This document shows, in pieces, positions 2,066 through 36,733 of a stretch of 64,000 nt of DNA. Below the pieces are notes generated by a model. The model was not told the origin of the DNA. It saw nothing but the letters and a program-made list of their open reading frames with translations, and made no database searches. Made by a program: the position numbers and the translations under genes. Position 1 is the first letter of the stretch, and each line of letters opens with the position of its first letter. The stretch comes from Bryoerythrophyllum caledonicum (Eukaryota; Streptophyta; Bryopsida; Pottiales; Pottiaceae), in assembly GCA_963971425.1 (NCBI GenBank), contig OZ020520.1, positions 5,250,553 through 5,314,552 on the forward strand. Direction: 5' to 3'.

Positions 2066-2096
2066 ACACGCAATTAAGCAATTATGCACTTGGCCA
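2066..2096 (+). repeat. Left TIR of the outer element
   Basis: It matches the reverse complement of 25655-25685 at 29 of 31 positions. Both copies run into a subterminal GTGCACTTGG motif, so each end holds a short inverted pair of CACTTGG. TAAAA (2061-2065) lies immediately outside. Confidence 0.8.
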
Positions 2097-2636
2097 TTTA
2101 AAAGTGCACTTGGGTACAACGGCGGCCATTGCGAACAAAAGTGGCAAAATTGAAAAAAAAAAAAAAAATCAAAGAAAAAAAAAGTTTTCCTAAGGAAAAA
2201 AAATTGAGCTTCTACAACAATATTATGTACAATCATGGTTGTTCATATTGGAAGCGATTTTTTGGCATTTTCAACTAATTTGTGGTGGCCCCTCGTTAAT
2301 ACTAGATAAATGTGTATTTAATATAGTTTCACAATATTCCAAAGATAGATTTGAAGAATTATAGTATATAAACAGACGTAATTACAAAAAAACATACTTT
2401 TTGCAAGGGTTGGCAGTTGATTAAAAGATATTCTACATAGTACATAATGCATACAATGGTGAAAACTAAATATAGATGCTTCAACAATTGGACTTAGCAC
2501 CAATAGTAAACACAGCTTTACTCTAAAGGATTAATGACATAACGTCTTACATCACCCTTAGAATATACTACTCTTACACATACACTATATATCAATTACC
2601 ATACACAACTAGTATACTCTAAAAAAGGCACACTAT

Positions 2637-5600
2637 CTACTCCATAGAATTTAGGGCTGCTTGCAAACGGTCGTCATCGATAGCTTCGGTTTGCATTGCA
2701 ATATATTGTAGGATGTGAGCCTTTGCCGATTGAAGAATGCGAATCCTGCTTTCAACCTGCGCTCCAAATACATTGCGCTTTCTGCACCCGCTGGCCCCGG
2801 ACATGGTTCTTTCCGGTGTGTCTACCCATGAAAAAATGCATGCATCTTTCTCTACCCAACTATGGCTCTCCCCAGATGGCTCCCAGATTGAGTCCATGCA
2901 ATTTGCATACCGTTGTGCAGAAGACCCATGTCCATCAGCAACCCCCCTTTGGATGATGGGCCAATACCAACAAACCTTTATCTTAAGTCTCCATCGGTTT
3001 TTTCCTTCCTCAATCACTTTCCCCACATAGAATGGTACACCGCCTTCTATCTCTGCTCGATCAACACTCAAGGCTACAAATTGTCCACAACGGATATCAG
3101 ATTGTGGATTAAATGGTGGAAATGGGTCGTGATTACTTTCATACATTGTTCCTTCTTCGGCGCGTTCCTCAACACAGTTGCGCTCTGTTTGTTGTGCCCT
3201 ACGCACTGCTTGATTAGAGGGTCTTCCTCTACGAGGACCAAAGTATCCTCGAGCCTCGGCATTTGGAAGCATGGCCACTACCTGCTCTACGACATATATC
3301 TCGCGATTTTCTTCACTTGTACCATCCATTACATCCAAAGATGCGCTCCCTGTAGGTCCGGTGTTGGAGAACTCTGAAGGCCAAAACGGTGTGGTACGAT
3401 GCTCATTGCTACGGTCTTTGTGTGGAAATTGAGCTAAATAGAGTTTCAATCTTTCAGCCTCTACTTTTGCCTCACGATTCTTGTCCTCATGCTGCAACCT
3501 TTGAATGCACCTTTGTTTATATGCAATGAAGTCATCCAACGCCTTCAACTCCCGTTCGTCCGTTGCAAATACTTCTGCAAACGATGGTCGTTCATCCCTA
3601 TTTGGCAACGACCTCAAAGTTTTTGTCCCTGCCTCCGGTCCCCATGGATCCTTGCAATAATGCTTGTGTTGTACTCGAACTTCATGACTCCCTTCTCGAT
3701 TGTCCATATAGAATCGCATGTGGTGCGGAAATGTTATGCCCACCAATGAATCCTGACCTGTCAGTAAGTGAGGAGTTATGAACAATTTCCAATTCCATAC
3801 ATTCTCTAGCAGTCGGGCGCTAACAAATGACTCCGTAGGAGATGTTCCTCGTTCTATAAGACTCATCATTTCCTTCAACGAGTCGACGTCCGACCTCTTC
3901 AACGTATTTGATATACAACTGAAACGTTGATCAATATCTTCGTGGGTATGGCCCACTATAAGAAAAGATAGTTCCACCTCCTGAAAAAACCCCAATCCCA
4001 CCAATGTAGCACATAGAGCAAACATATAAATATTTTTGTTCTCACGCGTGCAGTTGTCGGCCTGAATCCGCAATGTTGGTGGCAAAAAGCCCCTCCTCCG
4101 AAGCACATCTCCAATCACATACAACAATGTACTCACGACTTGATTGCTATCGTGTTTGTGGTGAGCCCCAAACTACACGTCGCAATATAAACCAATGCCA
4201 TGTACAAGAGCACCACACAGATGGGTCTTCACAAACCGGTGCTCAATGTTCTTCACAGTCTGACGCATCCTCGGTACCATGGTCGTGTTTTGGTCCATGC
4301 CATCCACTATGATGCACATGTACAACTCAGGGCTAATATAACACGACCTCTTGAATATCCAATAATGCCTACGTTCTTCCATCTGATAGCGTAGATGCAA
4401 CATAAACAACTCCTTTATCTTTATCCTTGCATCCGCATTGGTGGTTCCTTCCATGGCACATTTATACTCCCAACAATGATAACACTTTGAGAATCTCGAG
4501 AATGGAGGTACCTGAACGTGGGGATACTTGATGCGCCACATCCTCCGGAACGAACTCATAGAAATGGTTTCCCCATTACAAATACTCTTGACCTCCTCGT
4601 TCACGTAATTGAATACATCAAATTTGGCTGTATTCATAGGAAGGAGAATGAGAGGCACCACTTCGTTGTCACTCTTACGGCGAATACAGCGATGAGGTTG
4701 AGGACAACCAGCTTCATCGACAAACGATTTAAAGCAAGCCTCTGCTGCAGACATTCTAGTACTCTCTCTTATCGGATCTGAAAGCGTATTGCCGTGAATC
4801 GATGTTACTCTTCCATATATTAGACAGTCCTTCTTCAATTGCTTAAAGCGCCTCTGTGAATATCCAACCCCAAGAGCGTAGCAAGCATTGCAAACTTCTT
4901 TCCCATCTAACTTTGTTACAAACTTGTCTCGACGAGTTCCTTCCGTCCTTGTGTAAAAAGAAACTAGCATCTGTCTCATCCACGTACTTCGAACTGAAAA
5001 CTCATTACCCCATGCATTATATCGCATGTTCAATAGATACCTTGCTGGAACGTCCCTCAAACAATTGCGTTTGCATCCTCCTTGTGTCATTGCAATTTGC
5101 ACGCTTCTAAGCGATACCTTAGATGGTGCAGCTTCTGTCAATGATGGCTCCCTAGAATCTCTCCTTCTCCTATTTTGCATAGAATATGGACGACGTGCTG
5201 GTCTAACATAAACAAATCCATCTACATGGGGCAAATCTTGGATGTTTGAGGGAGTAGGCTGGGAAAACGGCAAATTTTCATCTTCCGCATTTGAAGCATG
5301 ACTACTGCGTCGAGACCTCTGGGTGGATCCTGGTGTGTTGATGAACTCAGGAAAATCAAATTCTGGGGCCATCACTTCTGTAGGCGCTATCTGTGATCCA
5401 ATGTCACCATGGACACCTGTGATATCAGGTTCTACAGTCACTACACGTAGCAAAGATCGATGCCAACGAATGATCAAGCCCACACACATGCCAAGGCGTT
5501 CTCCTACAATCTCTCCAGTCCAATGCAATGCATCATCTACCCTAATGATACGCACTGCCACCTCAAATGGGAACAACTTTGACCCATTCAATTCCATGCC

Positions 5601-5828
5601 ACTTTTGAATGCATGCTCCCTGGTTGCTAAGCCCACCACATCTCCTTTCTCAGAAAGCAATTCAACTGTCCTCTCCAATTCAGATGTTCTGATCCCAACA
5701 GATCTCTGCTGAATTTGCCTTGCACGTGCTGCTCGTACTAATCGAGCCCCCATAGAGCTATTGGAGTGCATATTATCCCTTTGGATGTGTGGCCGTATCG
5801 AAGGAGTCTGAATCGTGCGGCTGTCCAT
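2637..5828 (-). CDS. DUF7869-type putative DDE transposase, one in-frame TAG
   Basis: A frame of about 1,060 codons broken only by a TAG at 4173-4175. I start at 5828 because an intron-like acceptor (TTTCAATAG) lies just upstream. The N-terminal third is low-complexity. A cysteine region follows (KRNCL, then GKEVCNACYALGVG), as in proteins annotated DUF7869. Three acidic motifs line up as a possible DDE-type triad: VDGMDQNTT, LRIQADNCTRENKN and VGHTHEDIDQRFS. The last two are hallmarks of the family. The C-terminus has a small beta-rich region (near VGKVIEEGKNRW) before the stop at 2637. It lies inside a TIR element and reads away from the ParB/methyltransferase gene. The transposase role is inferred from the motifs and the element context. 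The TAG may be a decayed TGG or CAG codon. Confidence 0.75.
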
Positions 5829-6084
5829 TATCACTATTGAAAAAATAAGAACATTATGGCTGCACATTAGTCAAAATATATGTACTAATTGTTAACCTTC
5901 AAAGCACCATTCATTTGATAAAAGATATATTTCTAAATACATATTCACTGTTCAAAATATGATGATGATATTAGACCTTTTGATGAAACAACTTTGAAAT
6001 GAAAAAATTAAGAATTTGTAGAGCATGAACTCCTTGCACAGAGTCATTAACCCTGAAGGTACAATGACAGTTTTACACCAAAAA

Positions 6085-6690
6085 CACTTCAAAATTCTTG
6101 GATTCTAGTGCAATGAACAAAAAAGGAAACAAAAACTTTTATTTCTAATTTTGACTGTAGAATCTCAATTACGGCTTGTTAAGTAATATAAAACAAAATT
6201 TCATAAACTTTGACCGCATGGATTGAAAGATTATAGTGTTTGAAGTCAAGCATATGGTTCATTTTCTTCCCTGAGTGCAGTGGATCAGCAGACTTTGACT
6301 TCACTTGCTATCAAATTTTTGCACTACACAAGGTCTAAATCCATAACCATCTTGTTAAGCTTGATGTTAGTTCTTTGTACACCAATTTTTAGAGGTAGAG
6401 AACGGGTGTAGCATATTCAAAACAATTGTGCAAGGAGTGGAAGTTTGGAATTTCTTAAATCACACTATAATTTTTTGTGAACTTAATATGTTTTAGATTG
6501 GTAATCCAAATGGTCATAAGAAGGTTTACACCACATATTGTTGTGGAAAAAATAAAAAGTGAAAAATAAAAAAATATCTAGGTTTTATTTGGAAAACAAA
6601 AAGTTTTTTTGGTACCTTGCCCAACACTGACTGACAATGTGTGAAAATGTTTGACTTGGGTTGATATGCTATTTTTCACTAATGACAAGA
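6085..6690 (+). repeat. Spacer repeat, copy A
   Basis: AT-rich block of about 600 bp, related throughout to 8830-9415. Shared landmarks are GACCGCAYGGATTGAAAGATTATA, split here as GACCGCATGG plus ATTGAAAGATTATA, and ATTTTTAGAGGTAGA before a GTGTAGCAT motif. A diverged inverted copy lies at about 62440-63350. Confidence 0.6.
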
Positions 6691-8098
6691 ACTTATTTTG
6701 ACAACATCAAGGGAAATAGTATTAGTTGTAAGTACCGAAAATCTCACATTCAACATAGTGTCATAGCAAAAGTTTTTGAACATGCCCGACTTGCCCGACT
6801 TGCCCGCTCTCCCCATTTGAAATTCAAAACCCTTCAACTTTTTGATCAAATGTCCAATTTAGGTCAAAACTATTTTCCCACTAAAGTCTTGATAATGCCT
6901 TCCTATGATAAAATTTTCAAAGAGAAATGTTGGAAATTGACACCATAGGAACATGACCGAACTTTCAAAAAGCCCATTTTTGACAATTGATCCTTTAGGG
7001 GTTAAATATGTTACACCTCTTCTGCATCCCTAAACATTGGTGTAAAATAGAACTTATATCATTTCTAACATGATGATAATGAATCTAGATCATGTGTGAT
7101 GTAATCTTTTGAATCCAAGGGAACTGAAATGAAGGGATTCCACAGAATCTAGGGAAGAAAATGAACCATGTTGTCTACTTGCTATTACTGACACTATTGG
7201 AATTTGTTACAATCGCTAATAAATGAAAGGGTTTATACATCCACATCAAGGTTTTTCTATAAATTACATAGTATAGAAGATCAATCAACAATCAATCTTA
7301 AACTTGTATAAAAATAAATGTTTACCTGAAGATGCGTTGCAGGTGTTAGCGGTACACGCACTAATGCTTGATGGCGTTCAACATTAATTCAACATTATGT
7401 CGTTGTTGTTGAACATGTTTTCCAACCCTTCCCACTGTACCTGCAACATATGCATAAAATTTATATGGTAAACTATGTGATAAAAAATCCCAAGTATCTT
7501 TGTATTACATGTAGGCTATAGCCAATTTTTTTAATATAATATGTAAAAAGCTTAAACAAAAGGAGAAACAAAGCAAAAGGTCCAAAGTTCTAAAGTCAAA
7601 CTTTGACTAGTAAACTTGGAGCACAAGGTTCCAACAAGGATATAAGGTTTCTATGCAAATCTAGAGGTCTCTTCCCATCTCAGTTTCTAAGGTGAACTCT
7701 CTTGCAATCGAAACCTCAAGGCCATGTGTATTTTTACTTCATTCACTAATTTCTGTCAACTTGTGTGTAGTGTGTAGATTGGAGGAAATTTGAACATCGA
7801 AAAGTTTCTTGAAAATTTGGTAAGTTTCTGACCTTGTTTCAATTCTGAATGAGGGAACTCCAGTATTAGATTCATGATGATTAAAGATTAGTCAGAGATA
7901 CAATAGTGTAAGGTGAGCAGAACCAAGAGTTGAGCACCCAAATGAAAACATCCACTTCAGTATGTTCAAAGATTACAAATTCAATAGAAGTAAGATGTTT
8001 ACAACTAGTGAGTCAACTAGTGACATCAAAGAGTGACACCAAAATCCACTGAGAACTTCAATAATGAGAGTAGCCCGTAGTATTGTATTAAAACCATG

Positions 8099-8298
8099 NN
8101 NNNNNNNNNNNNNNNNNNNNNNNNNNNNNNNNNNNNNNNNNNNNNNNNNNNNNNNNNNNNNNNNNNNNNNNNNNNNNNNNNNNNNNNNNNNNNNNNNNNN
8201 NNNNNNNNNNNNNNNNNNNNNNNNNNNNNNNNNNNNNNNNNNNNNNNNNNNNNNNNNNNNNNNNNNNNNNNNNNNNNNNNNNNNNNNNNNNNNNNNNN
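8099..8298. other. Assembly gap (200 N)
   Basis: A run of exactly 200 N, probably a fixed-size placeholder. Apparent frames that cross it have no meaning. Confidence 0.98.
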
Positions 8299-8480
8299 CT
8301 CCAAATTTCTCTCCCTCACCCCTCCCCTCCAAATTTCTCTCCCTCACACCTCCCCTCCATTCCTCTCCTCACACCTCCCCTCCATTCCTCTCCCTCACAC
8401 CTCCCCTCCATTCCTCTCCCTCACACCTCCCCTCCATTCCTCTCCCTCCCACCTCCCCTCCATTCCTCTCCCTCACAACT
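8299..8480 (+). repeat. CT-rich minisatellite
   Basis: Tandem copies of a unit of about 26 bp, CTCCCTCACACCTCCCCTCC plus ATTCCT with small variations. The array abuts the assembly gap, so its true length is unknown. Confidence 0.85.
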
Positions 8481-8829
8481 CTTCTCTTCTCACAAGCCTT
8501 TCTCTCACAAACCCACAAGCCTCCAAACCCTTCTCCAAATCCTCTCTCTCACAGTGGCAGCCTCCTCACAACAATGGCATGGGTGTGCGCGCGCACACCC
8601 CTCCTTGGACTACCCAAGGATTGATATCCGTAGTTGATACCCTCAGAACAAAAACCCTAATTTTCAAACCCTAATTGATACCCTGAACAAATACCTATGT
8701 TGATAACCGGATGTTGGTACCCATGAAATCATACCCTGGTTGTGATACCCTCGCTATTGATACCCAAAGCACCATAGTCCATAAATGGTGTAAAGAATAT
8801 CTCAACCAAAACTCGTAAAAAATGCTTGT

Positions 8830-9415
8830 TTTAGTGCAATTAGCTTGCATGAAAAAGTGAGGTATTTTTTGTAGTTTTAACCGTAGGATCTCAATAAAGG
8901 CTTATAAAGTAATGTACTCACAAAATTTCATAAAGTTTGACCGCACGGATTGAAAGATTATAATGTTTGAAGTTGAGAAAAGGCTCATTTTCATCCCTGC
9001 GTTTTATGGATCAGCAGACTTTGACTTAAATTAGTGTCCAATTTTTGCATTTCAAAGGGTCTCAATTAATTACCATAATGTTTAGCATGATGTTAGTTTT
9101 CTGTATACCAATTTTTAGAGGTAGACAAGGAGCGTAGCATTTTCAAAAAAATTGTGCAATGAGTGGAGGTTCAAAAATTCTCAATTCACGTTACATTTTT
9201 TGGGGAACTCAATATTGTTTTAAATGAGAATCCAAATGGTCAATAAGAAGTTTTACATCACATAATGCTGTAGGAAAAATAAAAAGTGAATCATACAAAG
9301 ATCTCAAAGTTTTATGTGGGAAGGTAGTGGTTTCTTTGGTACGTTGGCCGAAAATGTGTGAGAATGTGTGAAAATAATTGATTTGGATTGGCGTGCTATT
9401 TCACCAAAGAACTAA
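8830..9415 (+). repeat. Spacer repeat, copy B
   Basis: Same unit and orientation as copy A at 6085-6690, clearly related over its whole length. Confidence 0.6.
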
Positions 9416-9900
9416 CAACATGCTTCACACGATGCTGTTGGATTTTGATCTTGTGTAGTGCAAAAGTTTTTAGAGGTAGAAAAGGAGTGTAGCATATTTA
9501 AAAAAATTGTGCAAGGAATGGAGGTTCAAAAATTCTCAATTCACGTTTTTTTCTTTTGGGGAACTTGATGTTGTTTGAAATGAGAAACCAAATGGTCCAT
9601 AAGAAGGTTTACATGATGTAATGCCGTAGCAAAAATCAAAAGTGAATCATACGAAGATCTCAAAGTTTTATGTGGACATGTAGAAGATTTTCTGGTACCT
9701 TAGCAGAAAATTTGTGACAATGTGTGAAAATAATTGACTTGGATTAATATGCCTTTTCACCAAAGAACTAACAACATGCTTAACACGATGATATTGGATT
9801 TAGATCTTCTGAGGTGCAAAAGTTTTTAGAGGTAGACAAGGGGTGTAGCATGTTCAAAAAAGTTGTGCAATGAGTGGAGGTTCAAAAATTCTTATTCCAT
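9416..9900 (+). repeat. Spacer repeat, two partial copies
   Basis: The 3' half of the spacer unit is repeated again from about 9455 and partly from about 9815. Each copy begins with TTTTTAGAGGTAGA and runs through a TGTGCAATGAGTGGAGG-like motif. The last copy ends just before the ParB/methyltransferase gene. Confidence 0.55.
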
Positions 9901-9954
9901 ACTAATAGTGACTATGGTTTTGTAATGATATACAGGTTTTTTGAGTGTTGCGTT

Positions 9955-11107
9955 ATGGCACCACCAAATATTGACAGAATTTGGGAGAGCCACGGCTGGT
10001 GGATCGCGGAAGTGGATGAGTCGAACGCCTTCTTGTGGGAGACGGATTATCCCTTTGAGTTGGGGAAGCGTACATCGGCATTGGGGAAGAGTTTTGGCAA
10101 AATTCAGGCAATCACTCTTCGACCTGATGATATGGTATATGTTACTTGCACAGTAGGTCCTGGTCAATCGGAGGTGAAGACTTCTCTTTCGAAGAAGTTG
10201 CTTCTTGCACCTGTCCCTTTGAATCTTCTTCAAAATCCAGGTCAGGTGAAATTCCTCAAATCATTGCAGACGTTTTGGTTGAATATCTCTCTTGCGGTAC
10301 GTACTGCTAGACACAACAACGTCTTAGCCTGTTTAGCGTTATCACCGGAGATGGTGCTGAAGGCTAAGAAGATTATAGAGGAACATATTAGATATGAGGC
10401 ATTTCGGGAGAGGGACCCATCACGTGCGACAACTCAAGCCCCACCAGCAAAATCGGAAGAAACAGAAGTTTATCGAATTCTTGCTGAGCCGTTGCAACTG
10501 GATTGGCGACCATTGGAGGGGGGGAGAGGAAGTGGAGGCCAACATCCCGCCACAACTTCTGAGGTACAGACATTACCGAATCCTCCATTAACGAGTAGAC
10601 GTCCTACGAAGAGGCCACGACGTGTTGACAGTGATGTAGCTTCTGGTTCAAGAGAAGGCCCATCAAGTTTGGATCCAAGTGGGAGGAGGTTGATTGGGAG
10701 AAGTGCAAGATCAGGTGCCAGGATTCCTAGGTCGGGGCTCAGGACGTCTGATGGTCATCGTAGGGCCCCTACATCTACAGCGGGAGATTTAGCTGATTTG
10801 TCAGCCATGGCGCCGGAGGAAGAAGATTTTCACAACCTTCCAGACAGTATACCAGAGGATTTTGAAGGCAATGTGGAGATACCACAGGATCTTCCAACTC
10901 CAATGAATTTAAGAGCACCAGTGCCTACAACAGAGGAGATTGCGAAAGGATCAGTGTGGGGAAATTTCGTGTTTAAGGCACACATAGACCGCATTGTCTC
11001 TGTGGAGAATCCAGAAACCAACCACCGGGTTTTATCACAGAAGAGGGTCATAGAAGTATTCAACCGCTTACGGGACCCAGAATCCGCGACTCGGGTGAGT
11101 AGATTGG
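9955..11107 (+). CDS. ParB/methyltransferase-like protein of the outer element, 5' part
   Basis: Starts at ATG 9955, about 20 bases after an acceptor (GATATACAG), so an upstream non-coding exon is likely. The first 130 or so residues form a compact domain of unknown function (begins MAPPNIDRIWESHGWWIAEV). A disordered, Ser/Arg/Pro-rich linker follows, then the start of a domain that continues after the insertion. The open frame runs on only to a stop at 11133, inside the inserted element. The true coding sequence breaks at the 12-bp repeat 11096-11107 and resumes at 22277 in the same phase. With the insertion and one repeat copy removed, the gene has 1,322 codons including the stop. It is disrupted here and not expected to give full-length protein. 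Confidence 0.7.
11096..11107 (+). repeat. Left copy of the 12-bp direct repeat flanking the inner element
   Basis: TGAGTAGATTGG, identical to 22265-22276 and in the same codon phase on both sides. It is read as the target duplication of the inner insertion. Confidence 0.8.
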
Positions 11108-11108
11108 C

Positions 11109-11185
11109 AGGATTGTTAGTTTGTGAGCGGTGAGCAATGCTCACTGAGCGGTGGGACGTGAGCAGTGGGACTTTGAGCATTGAAT
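11109..11185 (+). repeat. Left terminal heptamer cluster of the inner element
   Basis: TAGTTTGTGAGCGGTGAGCA followed by further TGAGCGG and GTGAGCAG copies. The right end (22196-22257) has the reverse-complement pattern with at least six CGCTCA or CGCTCACC units. These are possible transposase-binding subterminal repeats. Confidence 0.6.
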
Positions 11186-12669
11186 TGTCGGAAATTCGAG
11201 GATGATATTTTGTACAAATTGGATGATTAACCGTGGAGATGTGGTGCTAGAGTACCCAATACCCGTGGAAAATTTGGTGTCGTATTGCCTATTTTTGTAG
11301 AACTTTTGCAGTAGTAGAGCCTGCAATATCCACATTTGAAACCTGGATTATGTTCTCTTGTTTTTGAATATGCATTAAGATTTTATTTTTCTACTGAAAT
11401 AATTTTTTGCATAAATCACATTTTTGTAACATTTAAGTAGTTTATATTCTATGTTTAATTTGTTTACTACATATTAATGCCTCGTGAGAAGTGTTTAAGC
11501 CTTAGGATTACAATCCTTAGAAGGTTAGAGGAGAATATGAATAATAAAAGAACCACCCAATGTATTATGAACATCATTCATCAACCTCAAAGCATTTTAG
11601 TTGTTTATAATTTAGGGTTTAGCTTATACTTAATATTAAATCGTATTAGGATTGAAGATATACTTACAAATTTGAAACTAGATTCAAAATTGGAGACGGC
11701 AGAGAGCACCTCCTTTAGTACTGTTGAAAGTTTAGTTTTTATGAAGGGGCTAGTTTTTAAGAAATAAATTTATAGAAATTGGAGAAATTTTATACTATAT
11801 CATGCTTATTCAATTACTATTATAACCACGGAGAATATTATGTTTTTCTCATGTTAGGGAATGGATTAGATCTACAAAGAGGATGAAATGTTAGATGGAA
11901 GATATAGAAGAGAAGTGTAGAAAATATGAGAGAAGTAGAAAGAAGATAATATAAAAAACTAAGGAAATAGGAAACCAAGTTAAGAAGGAAAAAATGTAGA
12001 GAGAAAGGTTTTTTTGAAAATTAGAGGGAAGAAGAGTAGAATAGTGAAGGGAATAGAATAAGTACATGGAGGAAAGAGAAGAAATATAAACAATGGAGAA
12101 AGTAGAGGAAGATGGAAAGAGAAAGAAAATCATATGTAAGAGGGAATAAGTAGGCTACAAATGAAAAAAGAACTAAAAAATGAAATAGAATGAAGGAAAG
12201 TGAACACAATGAGAAAAATGAGTCACGAATGGAAAAAACACATACCGTTAATGGATGGTTGAGTAATTGAGAACCGTTATACTAGGATGTGGATATTACA
12301 TGGAGAACTTGGTTCAATGCCAAGAAAGCATCAAGTCCTGTAGATGGTTGAAATTGTCGGATCCAACAACTGTCACAAGAATTGGAAGTTTGAAATTTTT
12401 ACACATTTGACAATCACAGAAGACCGAAGCATTGTCACCGAAGCATTTTAAGATAGCTGGGATCATATTAACTAAAACAATAGAATCATAACACAACAAA
12501 CGTAGTGAGTCATGATCGGAGAATAACAACACTACTGAAATGACGATGTAGATACTTTTGAGAGTTCAAGATCTTCCTCAGCTTCAACATCAAGATACAT
12601 AAAGACATCGGAGTTTTACTTAGGACGTGATATAGACGGGGAAGGCTGCGAGAACTGCGAGGCTTGGAG
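11186..12669. other. No confident gene; purine-rich tract
   Basis: From about 11860 to 12235 the plus strand is almost all A and G, so long frames on the minus strand here are low-complexity artefacts. A minus frame at 12314-12532 could be a distal exon of the methyltransferase-like gene, but shows no recognised motif. One copy of the GTCGGATCCAACAAC palindrome lies at 12356-12370. Confidence 0.4.
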
Positions 12670-14937: not shown

Positions 14938-15414
14938 CTACAAAACCAAGACATAAAGTTTGTGAACGTTCCAATCACTTTCTTCCCCTAAGTAAATTTG
15001 ATAAAGTATAATATCAATCTAAATATTCATTGATTGAAGCATCAAAGACTCATCATCAATGAAACAATATTTGAAAAGTATAGCCATTCAAAGTTTACAA
15101 TACATCAAAGAATATATTGATTCAAGCATGGCAAAAACTAAAGACAAGGGTGACTACTTTCAAGATCAGTCAAGCATGACCAAAGCTCAAGAAATAGAGC
15201 AATCATGATTTAAAAGGAACATCATACTTTGAATGGATCATCAAATAGACTTTAATTGTTCTTATGAGCCATACACACGTCCACAACATATATGTGTCTA
15301 TACATACGAGTATGTAGGTAAATTATTGAGACAAGCAAATGCTTACTGGCCACCAATTCCACTACGTATTATTCCAAAGGGAATCAGATGTCTTGTTCTG
15401 ACCTTCATCAATGG

Positions 15415-16815
15415 TTATTGGATCCGACAACTCAAAATTCATACCATTGACACAAGCTACTAATCATCTCTAAACAGGTAGTCAAATCCAGCAACTGAGA
15501 ATTTTACAAATTTAGCTCTCAAAATTCTAACACAATCATGACGTGCTTAACATCTCCAAACTTGATGTAGGATCCAACAACTAGGAACAACACCGATTGA
15601 GCACAAAGAATCCTAACTATTTCATTGGCTACTTATCATCTCCACATCGATTGTTGGATCCAACAATTGACAAATATATTAATTCAGCACTCGTGAACTC
15701 TAACATTGTCACCACATAGTCATCAACTCGAAACGGGTTATCGGACCCAACAACTCTGCTAAAAATTATCATCTGCAAGTTTATGGCATTGATTACTGCA
15801 TGGCTATAGAGTCCTCCTTGAAATATTGAATTTGTCGTTATTCTACCATCTCAAATTGATTGTCAGATCCAACAACAGATAATTATATTGATTTAACACT
15901 CGGGAACTCTAACATTGTCACCACTGAGTCATCAACTCAAAACAAGTTGTAGGATCCGACAACTCTATTAAAAAGTTCCAAGTACTGCTCTTCTAACCCA
16001 AGATGATAAATCTAATGTGCAAGTTCATGGCATTGATTACTCCGTGGCTATATATTCCACCTTGAAATTTCGAATTAGTCGTTATTTTATACCAATTCCA
16101 GCCATTTTTACTACTTATTACAGATTATATCCTCTTTAACTCTTTAAAAACTATCCATAAGCAAAATCACATACACTCTCCCCCGTTTATGATGCTTGGT
16201 ATGTAAATGTTCCCTACCGTTGTTGGAACTGACAACTACTCATTCTTAAAATATTGCATGGTGCTCAAACTTTGTATTAACTAAACGAATTTCACCTTAA
16301 AGAAATGCACCATACTTTATTCTCAAGGATCTAGGTTGTTGGATCCAACATCAAACAAAGTCCAAAATTTCCCATTAGTTCGACTCTAGTGGTGTTAACC
16401 CTAAGTCCAATATCCTGTATATGATGCTTGGTATGTTAATGTTCCTTCCTGTTGACGGATCTGACAACTACTCATTCTTAAAATATTTCTTGGTGATCAA
16501 ACTTTGAATTTAACTAAACAAATTTCACCTTAAGGAAATGCACCATACTTTATTCTCAAGGATCTAGGTTGTTGGATCCAACATCAAACATAGTCCAAAA
16601 TTTCCCAATGGTTCGACTCTAGAGGTGTTAACCCTAAGTCCAAGATCCTGAATTTGATGCTTGGTATGTAAATGTTCCCTCCTGTTGACAGATCCGACAA
16701 CTACTCATTCCTAAAATATTGCATAGTGTTTAAACTTTGAATTTAACTAAACGAATTTCACCTTAAAGAAATGCACCATACTTTATTCTCAAGGATCTAG
16801 GTTGTTGGATCCAAC
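15415..16815. repeat. Array of GGATCC-centred palindromes
   Basis: Palindromes of the form TTGTNGGATCCNACAA recur about every 70-120 bp. A perfect copy, TTGTTGGATCCAACAA, is at 15651-15666. GGATCC cores occur at 15420, 15570, 15656, 15952, 16341, 16574 and 16807. Near-matches lie at about 15480, 15740, 15865, 16220, 16455 and 16690. From 16200 on the array sits in longer units of about 235 bp. More copies lie at 12359, 18768, 19151 and 19326. All are inside the inner element, around the ParB-like and methyltransferase-like genes. Confidence 0.75.
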
Positions 16816-16923
16816 ATCATATAGAGTCTAAATAAGACCAAAGATATTCCTACTTTCATTAAAGCCTAGGTGATCAGAGTACTACAACAAATGAATCCAA
16901 CAATGGATAAAGATGCCAAGCAT

Positions 16924-18429
16924 TCAAACAACACAAATAAATTTACCATGAGTACATAAGTAGATTAAAAAAAATCTTGAACTTAAGAGTTTTGCAAGGA
17001 AACTTATTTGTTCTAATAATCCTTTGTATGCCGGATTGGCGATGGAGCTGCACTTGTTGAATAGATTGCCAAGCTCATCTCTTTTTTTCGTAACCACCTT
17101 CTCCACGTATTTGTGAAATCCTTCTTCACTTTGGTCAGCTTCCTCAACATCTTCAGAGTATGTTTGTCCGGCCTCTTGTGAGGCTTGGACAATTTCATCC
17201 TGATCCAATGTAATCCCGTAAGAACCAAATAACAAGTACGATGCCATTAAAATTTTTGATAATGAACATGTAGTTAACTTACTTGAAAAATAAAATCAAC
17301 CATTAGATACTTGGTTAAGGGATACCAAGTTTTAATAGACTTCGTTACACAGACTTTATATTGATCTTCTGTTAGCATTGGTTTATAATACTCCAGCTTG
17401 TGACTTCCATACAGTTGAATACGATGAAGCGTGTGCACCAATGTTGTTTTGACGTGAGCATTCTGGTTTGCCCTACACATTCAAATATAAGGATTAGAAT
17501 TTCTGCACCAAAATTCAAAACATGAACAATCAATGAAAATAAGAATTATGGCTTACTTGTTTATATCATGCATGGCCTCTAGAATTTCACCTTGACCACC
17601 GGAAGTGTCCAAAACAACGCAATCCGGAATTCCATGCACAGAGTGCCAGTTAACATCCTCCGCATGCAATGTATCAATAACTTCTTTCCAAGCAAGCAAT
17701 CGGTGATTGCCATCGTAGACAAAAAAACATACGACCTGATAAATCTTCTAAATCAGGGTCTGCCAGGAGCCTTTCTCAGATGCAGCATTTTCCTCAATCC
17801 ACAATGCACTCCAAGACTTCATATCGTCATCGGTAACCACCTGCTTATGACCATTCTCATTGTATTCTGATACATACATGGCTGCTGCATGCGGTTGATA
17901 GCCAAATCGAAATGCACCCATTAGTTTGAGAATGTCAGATCGTAGGGTGGGTCTCACCAAAGGCATTGGGATCAACCGACAGAGTGGAATCTTCATCAAA
18001 GACTTCGAGCTCGGAATCCGGCGCATATTTGCAATCACCTCGAAAAAGTTACCTTGAATAAGATCCTCCTGAAGTTTAAGTTCAGCATTATGCAGATTCA
18101 TGACTTGACGGCAAGCACGTTCCTCTGTCGTCATGGGACTTCTTTGGATCTCCATGGGGGCGTTGGTTGGAGAAGGCTCCTCGCGAGCTAATGTTCCTCC
18201 TTTGTTTGAATGGATGCTAGTAGGTGTGTCAATCTCAGGATGTCCCCAAATGGGTTCAAACTAACGGTCTTGAACGTTTTCGAATTAACAGCTCACCTGA
18301 AGACTCTGGCTCCTCTTCATCAAGATTTCCAGCGTCATTGCCAATCAGAGAGTCCATCACAACATCCACCATGTCATTTGATGGAATTGAAGCTTGACTG
18401 AGCTGCTGAACTTCTCCATATGAAGCCAT
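16924..18429 (-). pseudogene. ParB-like domain gene of the inner element (frameshifted)
   Basis: Starts at ATG 18429. Exons that join in phase: 18429-18297, 18199-17557, 17472-17283 and 17199 onward, with GT/AG borders. The fold starts with IPLCRLIPMPLVRPTL (near 17995), like the first strand of ParB domains, and has the signature VYDGNHRLLAWKEVID (17720-17673), like the DGxHR loop of the ParB/sulfiredoxin superfamily. A C-terminal acidic coiled-coil-like segment follows. The reading slips frame between about 17768 and 17722. A run of seven T is the likely site of one slip, and an in-frame TAG at 17748 results. The methyltransferase-like gene lies downstream on the same strand. ParB followed by a beta-class methyltransferase is a common fusion in phages and bacteria. 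Confidence 0.6.
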
Positions 18430-18861
18430 CTACCACACCAAATGCAGATGAATCCATATAAAGGCAAAGTACTTGTGCAATGACTAATTCTAGCACCCTA
18501 TACTAACTCTCAGAGCTTCTTCTAATTATTCTGTTCAGAAAACTCACACTACGCATTGAAAGCACATGTTATGCATGAACATAAATGATCGTTTATAATC
18601 TTATTTAGAACACTCAATAAATGGTTCATCAAAGTTATCAAAAATCGACGCCAGTTTAAGCACAGTTTCACAATTCATCACAGGTTTTTGTTACACATGC
18701 ATTTCGGTTCGCATACACATTACATTATTGAACTCCGCGTGTTGCGAAGATCTTGGAGCCATTTATCGGATCCTACAATGTGAATGTACATTTCTCTAAA
18801 GACAAGATGATTAAAGAAATTATACAATATACACTGAGTATAAATATACAACTCACACATT

Positions 18862-19012
18862 GATCAGTGAGATCAGTTCTAATACCGACACAAGTCAAGA
18901 TCAGTTCTAATATTGACACAAGTCCAGATCAGTTCTAATATCGACACAAGTCTGGACACGACACACATTGATCACTGTGATCAGTTCAAATATCGACACA
19001 AGTCTGGACACG
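18862..19012 (+). repeat. 28-bp tandem repeat, cluster 1
   Basis: Copies of AGTTCTAATATCGACACAAG followed by TC and a variable GGATC-like joint. At least four copies occur here and about five at 19741-19875. Confidence 0.75.
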
Positions 19013-19576
19013 GCTTTATCCAACTACGAAGGCATTTTCACGTCATTGGTTTCTCATACTGGTTTATCATACACATGCATCGCAATGCGACTCAAGTCTA
19101 ATATCGACATAATGAATTCCAGGATTCAACGTCTCCACGTTGTGGTTGTCGGATCCTACAACTTGAAAATAGACTTCCCGAAGTCACGTTGGTTCACTGA
19201 ATGCTACGACTTTCAATAAGTATCACATGAGTTCTAATGATAGTAATTTGGATCAGCACTACTCGCGCACCAGCAAGGTCAATATTCTAAGCCACACAAA
19301 ATCCATGTTCAACTTCACGGTTATTGGATCCTACAATATGAATGAACACTTCTCTGAGGATTGCATTATTAAAGAAATTACTCTAGTAAACCTTGGGTTG
19401 TAATGTAAAATACTTTGAATAAAAACTAAACCCGGCTCCAGTGGCATAGACGCAGTGCATATACTTTGAATGAGAATTGCCATTGCCATCGTCCAGTCTC
19501 ATCAATCCATGCAATATATTACACTAAGAACACTGAACCTGAAATGCAAACCCAATGCCTTTTGGAATGCAGCTAC

Positions 19577-19660
19577 CATGAAACTGGTATGCTCACGGAC
19601 ACAAGTGATGTGTACGCATTTAGCATCGTGCTCATGGAGATCCTGACGGGCCAGAATTAA
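19577..19660 (+). pseudogene. Captured receptor-like kinase fragment
   Basis: A stretch of about 28 codons reads MLTDTSDVYAFSIVLMEILT. It matches the plant receptor-like kinase segment around subdomain IX (SDVYSFGxVLLEILTG). It ends in TAA and has no other kinase parts around it. It looks like a gene fragment picked up by the inner element, as MULEs often do. Confidence 0.65.
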
Positions 19661-19740
19661 ATGTGTATTGCAAACAGGGTAAGGTTATCATTTTATCAAA
19701 GACCCTATATTGCATTGAGGTGTCCACAATTCACACATTG

Positions 19741-19875
19741 ATCACTGAGATGAGTTCTAATATCGACACAAGTCGATAAGTTCTAATACCGACACAAGTC
19801 TGGACACGACAGACGTTGATCACTGAGATAAGTTCTAATATCGACACAAGTCTAGATCAGTTCTAATACCGACGC
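19741..19875 (+). repeat. 28-bp tandem repeat, cluster 2
   Basis: The same unit as at 18862-19012, interspersed with TTGATCACTGAGAT. About 730 bp of other sequence, including the kinase fragment, separates the clusters. Confidence 0.7.
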
Positions 19876-20592
19876 CTCCCTCTCTTTCGACGGGTTTCGC
19901 CCACTCTAGGTGAATACTCTTGCATTTGTCTTAGATATGAAATGATCTTACCAGAACCCCATTTTCTATGATATACTCTCCCATTTCATTCACCATCATG
20001 TACAAAAAACAACAATTGGAACAACATGTACCACCGGACAAGATGTACCAGTGGACCAGTAAAAAAATCGCATCGCTAATACGGCGATCTATTTTAGAGC
20101 AACCATGTTTTGTTAGCAACCAACTATTTATTACATACAAAGAAACACCATACACTCTGACATATCTAGTAAAATCTATATTGGAGTATTACAATAAATT
20201 ATAGCACTTTCCATTACATTACTCATTCTTTCATTAGAGCATTTTCAAATCCTGAATCTTCTTGACTAATTAGGGACTTCTAACCTTCATCCCAACTCTA
20301 TTATGGAGACTTTTATTACTCTTCGAACTGATCCACCGCAAATCATTTTTGGTGGAACAACTGTCAGCAGGCTCCGTCATTGCATCGTGCATCATTTAAT
20401 AGTAGATACAACGTATAGTGCGTTTACTATCTACTAAATCTTGTTTTTTTGTTTGTCTAACGGCACGCCGTCCCATGATGTGCCCCTTTTCTCAACTTTA
20501 AGTCTTCAAGAAGTACAATTGCTCCACAACACTTGTCACTCTCTTTAGGCTTCCTCCCTACCTTTTGACTCTTCTCAAAGTTTTGCTATTCA

Positions 20593-22037
20593 ATGGCAAC
20601 ACTTAGAACTGATGATCATTTCATTCCAATCCGAATCCCTTTAGAAGTTGATGGGCTTGCCTTGGTTACGTCATCCCTCCTTGCACTTCGTTTTGGCTAC
20701 CGTGTAGATACTATCCATATAGAGGAAGAGGTTTTAGATTATGCTGAAAATATCAGCTACACCATGCTTCAACTCAGTATACTTGTGGATGACCAAAAGA
20801 CTTGGTTTTTTAAGGAGGGTACTTTCAAAGTGATCAATTTGAGTGACTTGCAGATGCAGGCATCTACGGAGATCTTGACGCCTCGGAAATCCACCACTTC
20901 CAGCGTTAACCCAGTGTTTAACACTCCACAGACGGGCGCACCAGATTCACCCCCGGCTTCCGTACATCCTACTCCTGCTTTTCCCATTCGTATCTCGGAC
21001 AGCAAAGATGACTTCCCCAAAGAAGATATCGGAGCGCGTACTTCTTCAACCCTTAGCCCGCCATTGGCGTCCATGCACTCCCAACATCAACTTCATCCGA
21101 CTCCATCTTCCACATCACGGCCCCCTCTGCATCTCCAAACCCTAGAAACGCACTAGTGTTGTGGCGTGTTTGAAGAGTCTCGCCTCTAGGCCGGGGATGA
21201 AGAACGCGTTGAAGGCCATCAACTATGCTACAATGCCCCACATGAAAAAGAGAAGATTGTGCACCTGGGTAAAAGTACTCCTGCTCCTACCTATTCTGGA
21301 ATTCTACACGTTCGAAGGACATTGAAGGACCAGGTCATGGAGCTTTTCCACTGTGCGGACGACATAGAATGTTGTGTGAAGGGAACGAAGAGGAAGTGGA
21401 TGAACCACCAACCTCCTGTCTCCACATTATGGCCTGTGCTGAAGGGCACTAATCTCACAAAGGCTGAGATTCTTAGACTGGATTCCAGCTTGAGGAACGC
21501 CGAGAAGTTTCACCAAGGCGTCTGTTTGGAGACGCATCCAATCGTGCTGCACATCCTAGAACTATTCCACTACCTTTTGAATCCAATGCACATCCAACGA
21601 CTCGCAATTGTTGCCACATTCGCCGTCTCCGAAACGCCAAGGTCTCGGTAAAGCAAAGAAATCGTTGGGAGTCAGCTCGTATTCTCGATGCTTGCATCTC
21701 GCAAATTATTCCAATTCCGTATCCGGCTAATGGATGCATCATCTTGCTTCACTCAAAAAAGGCGCAGACCACAACCGAATATTGGTTGACAATCAGCCTT
21801 CTCCCCAATTGTTCTTGTGCAGATTTTAAGGACATGTTGGCACAGACCAAGAAGAGAGGCGCTTGGTACCACTGCAAGCACCTCTACTACATCTTCCGTG
21901 TGGTGTGCAATCTCAATCACGAGGATGACCATTTTGTCCATGCCCCCACTTTCAGCTTCAACAAGATCAAGAAAGTCATGGACAAGGGAGTCAATCGTTT
22001 CCTACAGACGATGCCAAAAACATATTTACTACTATAG
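20593..22037 (+). pseudogene. SWIM zinc-finger protein gene of the inner element (decayed)
   Basis: Begins MATLRTDDHFIPIRIPLEVD at 20593, with a Ser/Pro-rich linker. The frame continues through TAG codons at 21154 and 21187 into a basic region, then shifts frame near 21610-21650. The last part has a clear SWIM finger: CSC, about 19 residues, then CKH (WYHCKHLYYIF, about 21807-21890). SWIM fingers occur in MULE/FAR1-type transposases and in some transposon accessory proteins. No DDE core is evident, so whether this was the transposase is open. It is the only plus-strand gene of the inner element and ends about 230 bp from its right end. Confidence 0.55.
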
Positions 22038-22264
22038 GTCAAATTGACAGTCCTTATGTTTTGCAAATGAAGGTCTCAAAATCCGACAACCCACGGTTAT
22101 AGACAAAAATCAAATTTTAATAATAGAAATATTCGAAAAAATATTCGAATATAATTTTATTTTAAGTAAAAAATATTTATTTTTAGTAACTTTCTGCTCA
22201 CCGCTCATGAAATCACCGCTCATCGCTCATCGCTCACCGCTCATTGCTCACAAACTAGCGTCGT

Positions 22265-22276
22265 TGAGTAGATTGG
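22265..22276 (+). repeat. Right copy of the 12-bp direct repeat flanking the inner element
   Basis: TGAGTAGATTGG, the same as 11096-11107. After it the outer ParB/methyltransferase frame resumes. Confidence 0.8.
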
Positions 22277-25089
22277 TACTTCGACCGATCAGATACATCG
22301 TGCATACTGCCACTGATGATGGTGTCGTTGAGAAGGAAGAGCTGCCATTTCCGTTGGTAGGTACCGCACGAGAGTTTGAACGCATGTTCATTGCACACGG
22401 GAGTGCTTCTACAGAGGGTGTTATGGGATCCCAGTATTCTTGGCTTCAAGATCATATCATTTGGGAACCGGTGGATGGGCAACACATAGTAGCAGCTTGT
22501 AAGTTTGCACAGCAGCAGTGGAGAGATGCTACTATGCCTTTAAACGAGTATCTGGACACGTTTGAGCGGCGGGAGGCCTCTTTTGTGGTGTATGATGATC
22601 GTCGCTTTTACATTGAGAAGTCTGCGCGGATCAACGTGGCGGAGTTCCAAAGACATTCATATTCTACCATGGAGGAGGATTTGAGGAAGATCCGTCAGAT
22701 TTGGGATCTATACGGGAGGCCTGATAGCACACTACGTGCGGACGATGCACGCAGGGCTGTTGCTTTGGTGAGTGCGGCAAGTGCAGTGCACAAGTTGCCC
22801 AAGGGGGATGGAGTTGTCACGGTGAAGAGGTTGGCCAAAAACATGGAGGATTTGACCAATCATGCATGGAATCCGAGCAATGACTGCTTCGAAGCTATCA
22901 TTCAAGTATGCAAGGACTACGAAGACGGCACTCTCTTTTACAGCAAGGAGGAAGAGGACAAGTGGGAGGACATGGCGAGGAAGAAAGAGCTGGATCCAAA
23001 TGTGGACGTACGATCAACAAGAAAGGAGATGACGCAGAATTGGTTGAGGCCATTAGGTAGGGTTCCGAATCCATATTATCTACGGTTGGCAAAGTCTGCT
23101 GCAGCGAAGCCGGTGGGGGAGGATGGAGTAAGACCACGTCAAGCATATTACTTTGACGGTGTAAAAGACAAGAATCCACATCCTCGTACGATTGCCGGTG
23201 TGGTTGACCGATATCAGAGACGAGAAGCTGTGATGAATTCCATCCATTGGTTGATGGTGGAGAACAAGGAAAGTACACCTGATTCCATGGAGGATTTCTT
23301 TCGTATCCGTGTAGGAAAGTATTTTCCGAGGAGTAACGCACAACTTGATACGTTTGGGAAGCTTTTGAATGCTGCCACGAAAAAAGCTTGGACTACTTCT
23401 GTGCGGGGAAAGGTGTCTAAACTGGAAGACATAGGCTACCTCATCCCCCCTTCCATCAGGTTTCATTATGGTGACATTGCAGCAGGGGGGCATGGATACG
23501 TTGGACTGTCCGTGGATGTGGGAGGACTGGCTACTGCTAATTGGGAATGGCAGATGGAAGTCAAGAGGCCAAGCCAGAGCGACACAGAGAATCTTCTTCC
23601 AGTTCGGTGTAGAAGAGGGTTATTCCGCACCGACTACATAGAGTTGGGGAAACCATGTTTGTGGGTGATTGATTGTCGACGTGGCGGTGGGAGGCATGGA
23701 GATGGTCATTGGGGAGACGCCCAGTTATCCGCAGTTTTTGCACAGCTGGCATTATGGATGGCAAATATTGAACGATGGAACGTCATCTTCTTGTTAGCAG
23801 CGGCCGTGTATGCCAACGAAGAGTTTTTCACGAAAGTGAAGCTTCCAGAGGGATGTACTATGCGGCGTGGATGTTGGGCATTTGATCCAAATTCGGTTAA
23901 TCCCTATGCTCTCGATTTTACAGAGAATGGGCGTCTGGAGCAAGTAGTACAACCGATTGGCGATGTTGTGATTTGTATGCAGCACCCTGTGGGTACATCT
24001 CCTGGCCCGAACTATGTTTCTGGAGACGTTCCACTTCCTCTTGTTTTCTTGGATCACTGGAGTGAGGCACGCCAACCCTCTGAAGTTGATTCACTTGAGA
24101 GATCTCCATCAGAGCTGGCAAGACTAGTGGGCTCATACTTGCCCCGTGGTTGGGGTTTAGTGGCGTGTAACATATCAACGGCCATTCCCACGATCCTTGA
24201 AGGAGATTTCCAGGGATCTGAGGTTTTCATCATTGACGATTGTACAGACAGAGTTTCATTTCTGTACAATGAGTTGTCCGACAATTTCCAAGGACAACTG
24301 TTGGTCATGATTGGTGGAACAAGTACTGGTTGCAACATCGTACTTGAGACCGAAGAGGCGGTTGGTGGAGTGAGGAATGAAGACGACAATGCGGATGGAG
24401 GTGGTTTAAATGAGAGATTGCCACGTTCAGGTACCACTGAAGATTTCTCATCACGCAGTGGTTCAGACGCCGATGAAGATGGAGTGAACCAGTCTCCTCC
24501 AAGAGACAGGATTCCATCAACGCAACGGGCGGTGGGAGATACTTCAGGGCAGACATCTGCAACACCTACAGAGAGGATGCAAGATACCGGTGTAGTAGAT
24601 GTTAGATTGGCGGCAAGGGCAGGAGGGGGGCGTACATTTGATGGTCCTAGGCTGGAGATGGAGGAAGAAGGATTGGATTCATGTGAATTTTTTTCGGTGC
24701 AGAGGAGGATTCCACAGCCTTTCATGCCTTCTCAATCACAGCCTGTATCGGAGACACAAGAGACGTTTGGAGGTACTCAGAGTGCTATCGGACCGGGTTT
24801 GCCTTCCGTTCCAAGATCTAGCGTATCCGAGGACATCATTGCATTTCAGGGGGCCTTCTCATCAGAGCGAGAGATGTCCTTCAATCCTGAAGATGGCTTT
24901 TTCTACAATGATGATCGCGTAAGGCATACGCGGGAGGGTGTACCTGGCAATTATCGATTTGTTGAGTGTGCATCCATTGGCATCGAAGATGTGGGAGATC
25001 GTCCAGTGCAGGATCATGAACTGTCCGCTATGGTAGGTAGCGCCATTGGACACGTGGAGGGAGTCGTTCCGCCAGAAGATGAGCTATGA
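22277..25089 (+). CDS. ParB/methyltransferase-like protein of the outer element, 3' part
   Basis: Continues the gene begun at 9955. A ParB/sulfiredoxin-like signature appears early (EPVDGQHIVAA, codons around 22474-22497), where ParB proteins have a DGxHR-type loop. Further on, WVIDCRRGGG (about 23662-23690) sits where amino-methyltransferases have motif IV (DPPY). SPSELARLVGSYLPRGWG (about 24098-24150) resembles motif X running into motif I, followed by FIIDDCTDRV in the place of the acidic S-adenosylmethionine-binding loop. The order IV then X-I is that of beta-class N6A/N4C enzymes. The catalytic and glycine-rich residues are replaced, so I expect a non-catalytic or divergent protein. The C-terminal 250 residues are disordered. 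It ends about 600 bp before the right TIR. Domain names are my inference from motif order. Confidence 0.6.
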
Positions 25090-25654
25090 GCCGTGGAACT
25101 ATATACTATAGTAGAGCATGCACGCAGTTTAGGTGGCAAGTGCATTAGTATAATGTAGTTTGAGATGTGTCTATCGTTCGATAGGTGGTATATATTTATA
25201 TATTGGGTGGTCTATATGATATGTTTGATTTTAGAATTCCTCGGCAATAGTGTGGAATTGCTTGATTATGTATGTTTTTGCATTATAAAATACAGTGAGG
25301 TACTTTACACTGTCTTAGGAAATTGCATATATATTTTTGTATCTCTTACACATTGTATTTGTAGTGCACTACTCTAAAATCCTATAATAACTCATAACAA
25401 ATTTATAATCTCTTTGGGCACATGATTATGATTTTGTAGCAGGATTTGTAAACTAGATTAGATATCATATATTTTCTAAAAAAAGGTAGCAAATGTAAAA
25501 AATATATTACTGATATGAACATGAAGATGCCAAGGTATGACACGACGAACACCAAAAAATTTGACAGAAAACATTCTAAACTTTTGCCAAATTTTGATTT
25601 AAAAAAAAGTTGTGAGCAAATAACTTGCGGCTTTCTACCTACAACGAGTGCACT

Positions 25655-25685
25655 TGGCCAAGTGCATAATTGCTCAATTGTGTGT
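25655..25685 (-). repeat. Right TIR of the outer element
   Basis: Reverse complement of 2066-2096 with two differences. TAAAA (25686-25690) follows directly. Confidence 0.8.
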
Positions 25686-25690
25686 TAAAA

Positions 25691-31719: not shown

Positions 31720-31821
31720 AGGACGACTTATTAAGTGGATCTTCTTAATGTGAGCTTCAGCTAATCCGTTCTGTGCATGTTCGTAAGGGACAGAATACGT
31801 AAGGGTAATTCCCGACGCAAG

Positions 31822-31951
31822 ACAGTAGTCTTCGAAGGCATGAGACCTGAACTCCTGCGCGTTATCTACCCTAAGGGTCTTGATATACAGTAGTCTTCGA
31901 AGGCATGAGACCTGAACTCCTGCGCGTTATCTACCCTAAGGGTCTTGATAT
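31822..31951. repeat. 65-bp tandem duplication inside integrase
   Basis: Two adjacent copies (31822-31886 and 31887-31951), nearly identical. Sixty-five is not a multiple of three, so the integrase frame ends prematurely at 31866. Confidence 0.9.
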
Positions 31952-32816
31952 TATTATCAGGGTAGTGGTTTTTAAATTTTATGATCATCGCAAGGAGCTT
32001 CGGGAATACCATGTTACGTGTACTAAGTAGAGAGACCTCAGCGTGACGTCCAGACGCATCAACAAGAACTAGGAAGTACCTGAATGGTCCTGAAGCAGGT
32101 GAAATGGGTCCGCATACATCACCTTGAAGTCGCTCCAGCGTGACCGGCATCTCCGTGGGCAGCTTCCACTTGGATGGCTGTTTCGCAAATTTCCCCTGTG
32201 AACACGCCGCGCACGCTCCCACCTTCTCCGCGTCACTTGGGCAAACTGTGTGTCCCGTGATTGTCGGCAGCATGCGCCTGTACATCGTCGCTCCTAGGTG
32301 ACCAAGACGATTGTGCCAAAGTAAAATCTTCTTAGGGATTTCCACCGAGTACGCAGAGCCGATTTCGCTATCTCTTGAAGGAGCCTCGCCGAGATATGGG
32401 ATGCGCACCGGTGTCTTCGAGTGTTCACGGTGAACCTCAAGCTGAATGAGGCCCCCATTAATAACGTGCGTGGGGCGACTAGAGTTCGCAGAGGTCGCAG
32501 CTTGCGATGGGTGTAACCTGGATCTTGCGTCGCTCCTCCCGGGAATTGCATGATCCGCATTACGTCGCGGGGTGCCTTTCACCAGCGTCCTGGCCCCACA
32601 GAACGCCTGTGAGACATCAAGATCAGCAGAGGCGGCATCCTTCGCGGCTTGCTGTGGGTCACACCTGGGTCCAGCAGGTACCCCTCCTAGTCTTACAAAG
32701 CCCTGTCGAGGGATGCACCGTATTTTTACTCCATATAGGCCGTTAGCTCCTGCTTTTTGGGCGGTGGCGAGGACCTCCTCTCCCCGCCTGAGCTCGATCA
32801 CCTCTTCACCATTCAA
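31866..32816 (-). pseudogene. Copia pre-integrase and integrase core (frameshifted)
   Basis: Contains the zinc-binding pre-integrase motif (LLWHNRLGHLGATMYRRML) and integrase-core acidic motifs around QGDVCGPISPASGPF and TLRVDNAQEFRSHAF. It is in frame with the upstream protease segment but separated from it by a TGA at 32883-32885. It ends early because of the 65-bp duplication. Confidence 0.85.
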
Positions 32817-32882
32817 CGTTGCGGTGTTGAGGTGGACTCCATTGCTCCTCAGGTCACGGTAACTGATCAGGTTACGCGGTGC

Positions 32883-36146: not shown

Positions 36147-36733
36147 AGGAGGTACGCCATCAGCTGCGAGTGGGTCTTGTAGTGCATGTTCCGATATTGC
36201 TGTGCCAGCAGAGACGACGCGGCGGGAAAGGTAGACAGTGTCTTGTCTATGAGCTCGGCTTCCGTGACCTCCTCCCCGCAAAGACGCAATTGTGCAACAA
36301 TACGATGAAGTTCGAAGTTAAACGAGTTCAAATCAGTAAAGTCTAAAACACGTAATGAAAGCCAATCGCTACGAGCCTGGGGTAAGAAAATGGTCTTCTC
36401 ATGCTGAAAATGCGCCTTGAGTTGTTTCCACAGGTCCATGGGGTTCTTGACCTGGATGTACTGACGCCGCAGGGAGGAGTCGAGATGCCTCCTAATGATG
36501 AGCAGCGCCTTCCACTTGGTGGTGATCGGCAGGTTTGGTTCGTCAGCGCGCCGCTTCTTGAGTGCTGTGTGAAGTTCTTCGGCGCACAAGTAGGCTCGGA
36601 TGTCAACGCTCCACTCCAAGTAATTTGCGCCATCGCCTTGAAGTGCCGGAAATAGGAAGGACTGGACCCTAGGTTGGAGGTCTCCAGGGTCGTTGGGTTT
36701 GGTTGTCATGCTTCTTGTGCTCGTCGAGCACAA
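36147..36733 (-). CDS. Copia gag N-terminus
   Basis: Gag of the UBN2 type found in Ty1/copia elements (LEWSVDIRAYLCAEELHTAL; later NPMDLWKQLKAHF; LSTFPAASSLLAQQYR). The likely start is one of two in-frame Met codons near 36733 and 36709. The CACTA element is inserted after TCTCAGCTGATGGCGTACCT-like sequence. If it were removed with one AGG copy, the frame would run straight into the segment ending at 33777. Confidence 0.88.

Follow-up and report, generated by a model that had tools for sequence, protein, structure and literature searches.

A repeated transposon family in the moss Bryoerythrophyllum caledonicum with a putative DDE-type transposase of the DUF7869 family and a divergent ParB/methyltransferase-like gene

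Organisation of the element

The window considered here, a stretch of 64,000 nucleotides from the moss Bryoerythrophyllum caledonicum (assembly GCA_963971425.1, contig OZ020520.1, contig positions 5250553-5314552), contains an element bounded by terminal inverted repeats (TIRs), in which a gene for a protein of the DUF7869 family and a second gene, termed gene 2, lie in divergent orientation. The left TIR (2066-2096, forward strand) and the right TIR (25655-25685, reverse strand) are each 31 bp long and match at 29 of 31 bases, as the first-pass annotation of this DNA had reported, and a simple composition model expects 4e-7 TIR pairs of such quality within the span. The sequence TAAAA, also recorded at that stage, is a direct repeat that adjoins both ends (2061-2065 and 25686-25690); since the flanks are unlike when read outward (TAAAA against TTTTA), it is a target duplication of 5 bp and not an extension of the inverted repeat. 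This duplication was seen at the window copy only. The termini of the element read ACAC. At the right end the perfect palindrome GCACTTGGCCAAGTGC (25650-25665) spans the inner end of the TIR, and at the left end GCACTTGG is found again 20 bp further inward.

From left to right the element consists of the left TIR, the DUF7869 gene on the reverse strand, a spacer, gene 2 on the forward strand and the right TIR, with 540 bp between the end of the DUF7869 gene and the left TIR and 565 bp between the end of gene 2 and the right TIR. The two genes had initially been described as divergent and as filling the interior. Their divergent order stands, but they do not fill the interval: both genes are split, repeats lie between them and within gene 2 sits a nested element of 11,157 bp (11108-22264), itself enclosed by two copies of the 12-bp duplication TGAGTAGATTGG (11096-11107 and 22265-22276). 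A single cargo transposon of 23.6 kb is thus ruled out, because gene 2 is broken by an insertion that has its own duplication, and the size first given to the element was overstated, the nested insertion accounting for 11,157 bp of it. Close to its ends the nested element carries the inverted repeats TAGTTTGTGAGC, and it contains an open reading frame (ORF) at 21477-22037 (forward strand) in which a SWIM-like CxC...CxH motif can be recognised by eye; these two features together suggest a MULE-like element. No Pfam match was obtained for three ORFs of the nested element, and internal repeats are present within it at 15.4-16.8 kb and 18.8-19.9 kb of the window.

The region between the two genes (approximately 6047-9900, with approximate borders) is occupied by repeats of families D1, D2, D4 and D5. 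In favour of a later insertion, similar sequence recurs elsewhere in the window (62.3-63.3 kb) and flanks two other copies (L004 and L006), whereas in favour of an original part of the element, the copies L002 and L007 run into these repeats with order and orientation unchanged from the window. Amid the repeats, at approximately 8100-8300, lies the window's run of 200 N, beside a 26-bp C/T-rich tandem repeat. By subtraction of the nested element, the transposon measures 12.5 kb, or approximately 8.6 kb if the repeats at 6047-9900 are foreign too, and the gene order is the same under either estimate. Later insertion therefore makes up about half of the 23.6 kb and possibly more.

Further copies in the genome

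The assembly (437 Mb in 894 contigs) was searched with a 61-bp query that included the left end and TAAAA. This returned 1259 first-look candidates, 40 of which were scored, all with E-values of 5.3e-17 or lower, and the best eight loci were fetched; these comprise the window's own and seven others, L002-L008, which are known from their left ends only, to approximately 1.5 kb inward. At all seven the 31-bp left TIR is identical and the bases outside it differ, so that multiple copies with the same end and different flanks, as expected of a TIR transposon, are present for the left end; the first-pass reading, which a lack of further copies with these ends would have refuted, survives to this extent. 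The 5-mer outside the left TIR is TAAAA at five of the seven loci, TATAA at L006 and TAAGA at L008, a proportion that overstates any target preference, as TAAAA was part of the query and only the top eight hits were retrieved.

The copies differ in what they retain. In L004 and L006 approximately 1.55 kb align with the window interior, at 95.6% and 96.1% respectively, and both loci code for a C-terminal portion of 323-324 residues of the DUF7869 protein, with identities of 89% and 94%. Shorter portions of the same coding sequence are found at L005, L007, L002 and L008, so that it was matched at six of the seven loci, the exception being L003, which has approximately 97 bp in common with the window and nothing more. 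An internal deletion in L008 fuses both ends of the DUF7869 gene, L002 jumps from window position 2885 to 7044 and L007 from 3172 to 6227, and the match of L005 ends at 3091. With a reach of only approximately 1.5 kb inward, the fetched loci did not show the DUF7869 domain itself. Such a mixture of fuller and deleted members is what a transposon family looks like, and the window element is a genuine, repeated one.

The DUF7869 protein

The DUF7869 gene occupies 2637-5828 on the reverse strand, its frame broken by one TAG at 4173-4175. In the relatives P0009-P0013 (1062-1066 amino acids) the frame runs without such a break. The assignment to DUF7869, at first made from motifs, was confirmed by a match to the Pfam entry PF25273 on 2640-4172 (reverse strand), and the same family was matched in all 40 aligned relatives. 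PF25273 is listed in Pfam with unknown function, and no paper using the name DUF7869 was found in the literature searched; Repbase, which lay outside that search, may hold a prior naming. DUF7869 proteins occur in animals as well (P0031-P0033 and P0038). A viral origin was considered and rejected, as 19 stretches of viral contigs fit the DUF7869 pattern and none proved to be a relative.

The motifs of this protein had been read as a DDE-like core of two aspartates followed by an H-E-D motif. A model of the relative P0009 predicts an RNase H-like core, for which the nearest entries in the VIA-align list (where the absence of a family is not evidence) are DDE recombinases, in agreement with the fold anticipated for a transposase; Foldseek alone, run with the same model against the PDB and viral structures, gave no match at E<=0.001. 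The glutamate does not appear to serve as the third acid: position 630 is E in 32 of 40 aligned sequences, against D at position 633 in 38 of 40, and the last aspartate of GHTxxxxD is the most likely third catalytic acid. Among the 39 sequences that contain the segment (all 40 except P0029), the second and third acids are 41 residues apart in 37. Predicted model and conservation together thus place the three acids where an RNase H-like transposase would be expected to have them. A search of PDB sequences with the DUF7869 profile returned a single match, RFX5, at E=0.57.

The P0009 model also contains strand-rich modules on either side of the transposase core, at residues ~54-130 and 917-1026. 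One of these may be BAH-like, as one Foldseek row (E 0.076, probability 1.00) was the chain of a plant SHL protein in company with an H3K27me3 peptide. The divergent relative P0048 has GHTKNRCD where others have GHTHEDID, which suggests a wider clan with GHTxxxxD in common.

The gene 2 protein

Gene 2 encodes a protein of approximately 1330 amino acids, split by the nested element into 9955-11107 and 22265-25089, both on the forward strand. The first part, whose start was counted by hand, belongs to ORF 9874-11133 and ends within the putative ParB-like domain; the second contains the rest of that domain, a middle region, a methyltransferase-like region and a low-complexity tail. Relatives P0001 (1327 amino acids) and P0004 (1344 amino acids) match ORF 9874-11133 with their N-termini and 22265-25089 with the rest, and full-looking relatives range from 1125 to 1344 amino acids. 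A protein profile search listed 13 proteins, ten of them new, with identity down to 30%.

Two conserved features of the N-terminal part, WEP[VI]DGQHI (16 of 16 aligned proteins) and TN[HQ]R (12 of 16), fit the layout of ParB N-terminal domains. Towards the C-terminus an ID-CRR strand is followed by an acidic stretch and an ERSPxEL..LV..YLPxGWGL block, an order that by eye resembles motif IV and then X-I of N4/N6 methyltransferases. The motif IV consensus DPP[YFW] was found in none of the 16 proteins; in its place, as aligned by eye, stands DCRR, which is present in 11, while the other five rows stop before this region.

Profile and sequence searches did not name either domain, their best matches being at chance level and none of them ParB. 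The best E-values for gene 2 were 0.1 in Pfam and 0.28 in NCBIfam, and against PDB sequences one search gave nothing at E<=1 and another a best match of 0.18. In PHROGs it matched phrog_35330, a family of unknown function (E=0.0018, one of nine members), over residues 648-705 of P0008. These residues are also the ones covered by tblastn matches to phages, where a tail-terminator gene was hit in five Arthrobacter records with E-values of about 3. For P0008 the AlphaFold2 model had a pLDDT (predicted local distance difference test) of 35, too low to be informative. The identification of the gene 2 product as a ParB-like and methyltransferase-like accessory protein, which rests on motifs and analogy, is therefore unproven, and its methyltransferase-like domain has apparently lost the usual catalytic motif.

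Other features of the window

Retrotransposon pieces of Copia type, with integrase, reverse transcriptase and gag-like segments in several frames, were recognised by eye at 29476-33779 and 36110-36763 (reverse strand). Two adjacent frames at 52192-53370 (reverse strand) have by eye the look of a broken hAT-type transposase, for which Pfam gave only hits below the cut-off (Scytalone_dh and zf-C17orf113), and an AP2/ERF-like reading frame was noticed by eye near 59 kb.

Relationship to known transposon superfamilies

Repbase lists IS3EU, Ginger, Harbinger, Merlin, piggyBac, Zator, Novosib, Academ and Sola, among others, as superfamilies (PMC5753468). The CMCT clade, described as comprising EnSpm/CACTA, Mirage, Chapaev, Transib, Plavaka, ESTA and Lanisha, is marked by CxxC and H(3-4)H between the second aspartate and the last acid, and its target duplications are given as 2-5 bp (PMC12730594). 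The window element has in common with this clade a predicted DDE-type core and a duplication, of 5 bp, within that range; however, none of the 39 DUF7869 segments contains CxxC and just three contain H(3-4)H, and the ends read ACAC, not CA. Membership of CMCT is ruled out by these motifs, and with it, by motif alone, that of Lanisha, a superfamily proposed by Maumus, McDaniel and Carey, authors with links to moss work. Similarly, hAT, MuDR, P, Kolobok and Dada elements are described as having C/DxxH between the second aspartate and the last acid (PMC10045372); the DDE-type core is again common to both, but C/DxxH is found in none of the 39 segments, which rules out this group. The initial reading of a family not matching hAT, CACTA or MULE ends is thus supported at the level of transposase motifs. 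For Dada, likewise, the published description reports no more than a weak HHpred likeness to retroviral integrases (PMC3706591). As far as descriptions allow a comparison, KDZ elements resemble the window element in their large transposases and, in fungi, in accessory genes tied to DNA modification (PMC12730594; PMC12477816), but differ in duplications of 7-8 bp in the described families against 5 bp here. The element therefore probably represents a lineage outside the superfamilies compared by motif, that is, CMCT and the C/DxxH group.

Proposed mechanism and alternative explanations

The explanation we consider likely is that of a TIR element with the DUF7869 protein as a DDE-type, cut-and-paste transposase and gene 2 as a divergent accessory gene, in a copy that is no longer autonomous. 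The DUF7869 protein (approximately 1060 amino acids) would bind the TIRs and cut by means of its RNase H-like D-D-D core (D509, D591 and D633), and the ends would join the target at cuts staggered by 5 bp, giving the 5-bp duplication. The role of the gene 2 protein is less certain: combining a putative ParB-like fold for DNA binding with a methyltransferase-like domain whose catalytic motif is non-canonical, it may bind, spread on, coat or mark the DNA of the element, for example against silencing, or assist synapsis, and would not be the cutter. If the methyltransferase is inactive, it would act without modifying DNA. Since both genes are broken, the window copy could be mobile only with proteins supplied from elsewhere.

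The main rival, which we regard as rather unlikely, is that the element belongs to the Sola superfamily, as a divergent branch, and does not form a lineage of its own. Sola transposases have the layout SDGxxSQYKN / HGKGxxD, which could parallel DNxxRENKN / GHTxxxxD here, while the Sola duplication is 4 bp against 5 bp in the window copy. A further argument for this rival comes from Ectocarpus, where Sola1-1_Ec32, a 21.5-kb element, is described as having, opposite its transposase, a 1104-amino-acid protein with ParB-like and N4/N6 methyltransferase domains, predicted to make N4-methylcytosine or N6-methyladenine (PMC12477816). As far as that description goes, both are large DNA transposons that pair a transposase with an opposite-strand ParB-like/methyltransferase protein, but the transposase there is of Sola1 type, in contrast to DUF7869, the 5-bp duplication and DCRR at the eye-placed DPPY site here. 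Such an accessory gene need not betray common descent of the transposases, as accessory genes can cross transposon lineages, in the manner reported for TET/JBP genes (PMC12730594).

The Ectocarpus pairing (PMC12477816) also bears on the idea, in our view improbable, that nested insertions assembled the outer TIRs and both genes, with gene 2 foreign to the element. Nested repeats do exist in the interval, and among the fetched loci, represented by left ends only, there is no second one with both genes; against this stand the divergent order of the genes, their ends lying just 540 and 565 bp from the TIRs, and the published description of a similar opposite-strand pairing. We think it very improbable that DUF7869 has an accessory or domesticated role, with the real transposase encoded elsewhere. 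The occurrence of DUF7869 proteins in animals and the large size and conservation of gene 2 would accommodate this, but the modelled fold and acidic triad of DUF7869 fit DDE recombinases, its coding sequence recurs at all of the other loci except L003, and neither Pfam, NCBIfam nor PHROGs linked gene 2 to a recombinase family.

Implications

A broader proposal, which we put forward as a tentative possibility, joins two parts: that an unnamed DDD superfamily of eukaryotes, with members in land plants and as far away as sea urchins and ostracods, has DUF7869 as its transposase, and that its partner in this plant lineage is a protein derived from a ParB-methyltransferase, which has lost its catalytic motif and acts by binding or spreading on the transposon's own DNA. 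If the likeness of gene 2 holds, the accessory class is already known, and the differences here would be the accompanying transposase and a catalytic motif that has apparently been lost. Were the proposal true, a Pfam family of unknown function would gain one, that of a DDE-type transposase, in distant eukaryotes, and proteins labelled only as DUF7869 would become recognisable as transposon-derived. The ParB-methyltransferase accessory class of algal transposons would likewise extend to a probable plant element with another transposase, and it would become testable whether such proteins shield transposons by DNA modification or by mere binding.
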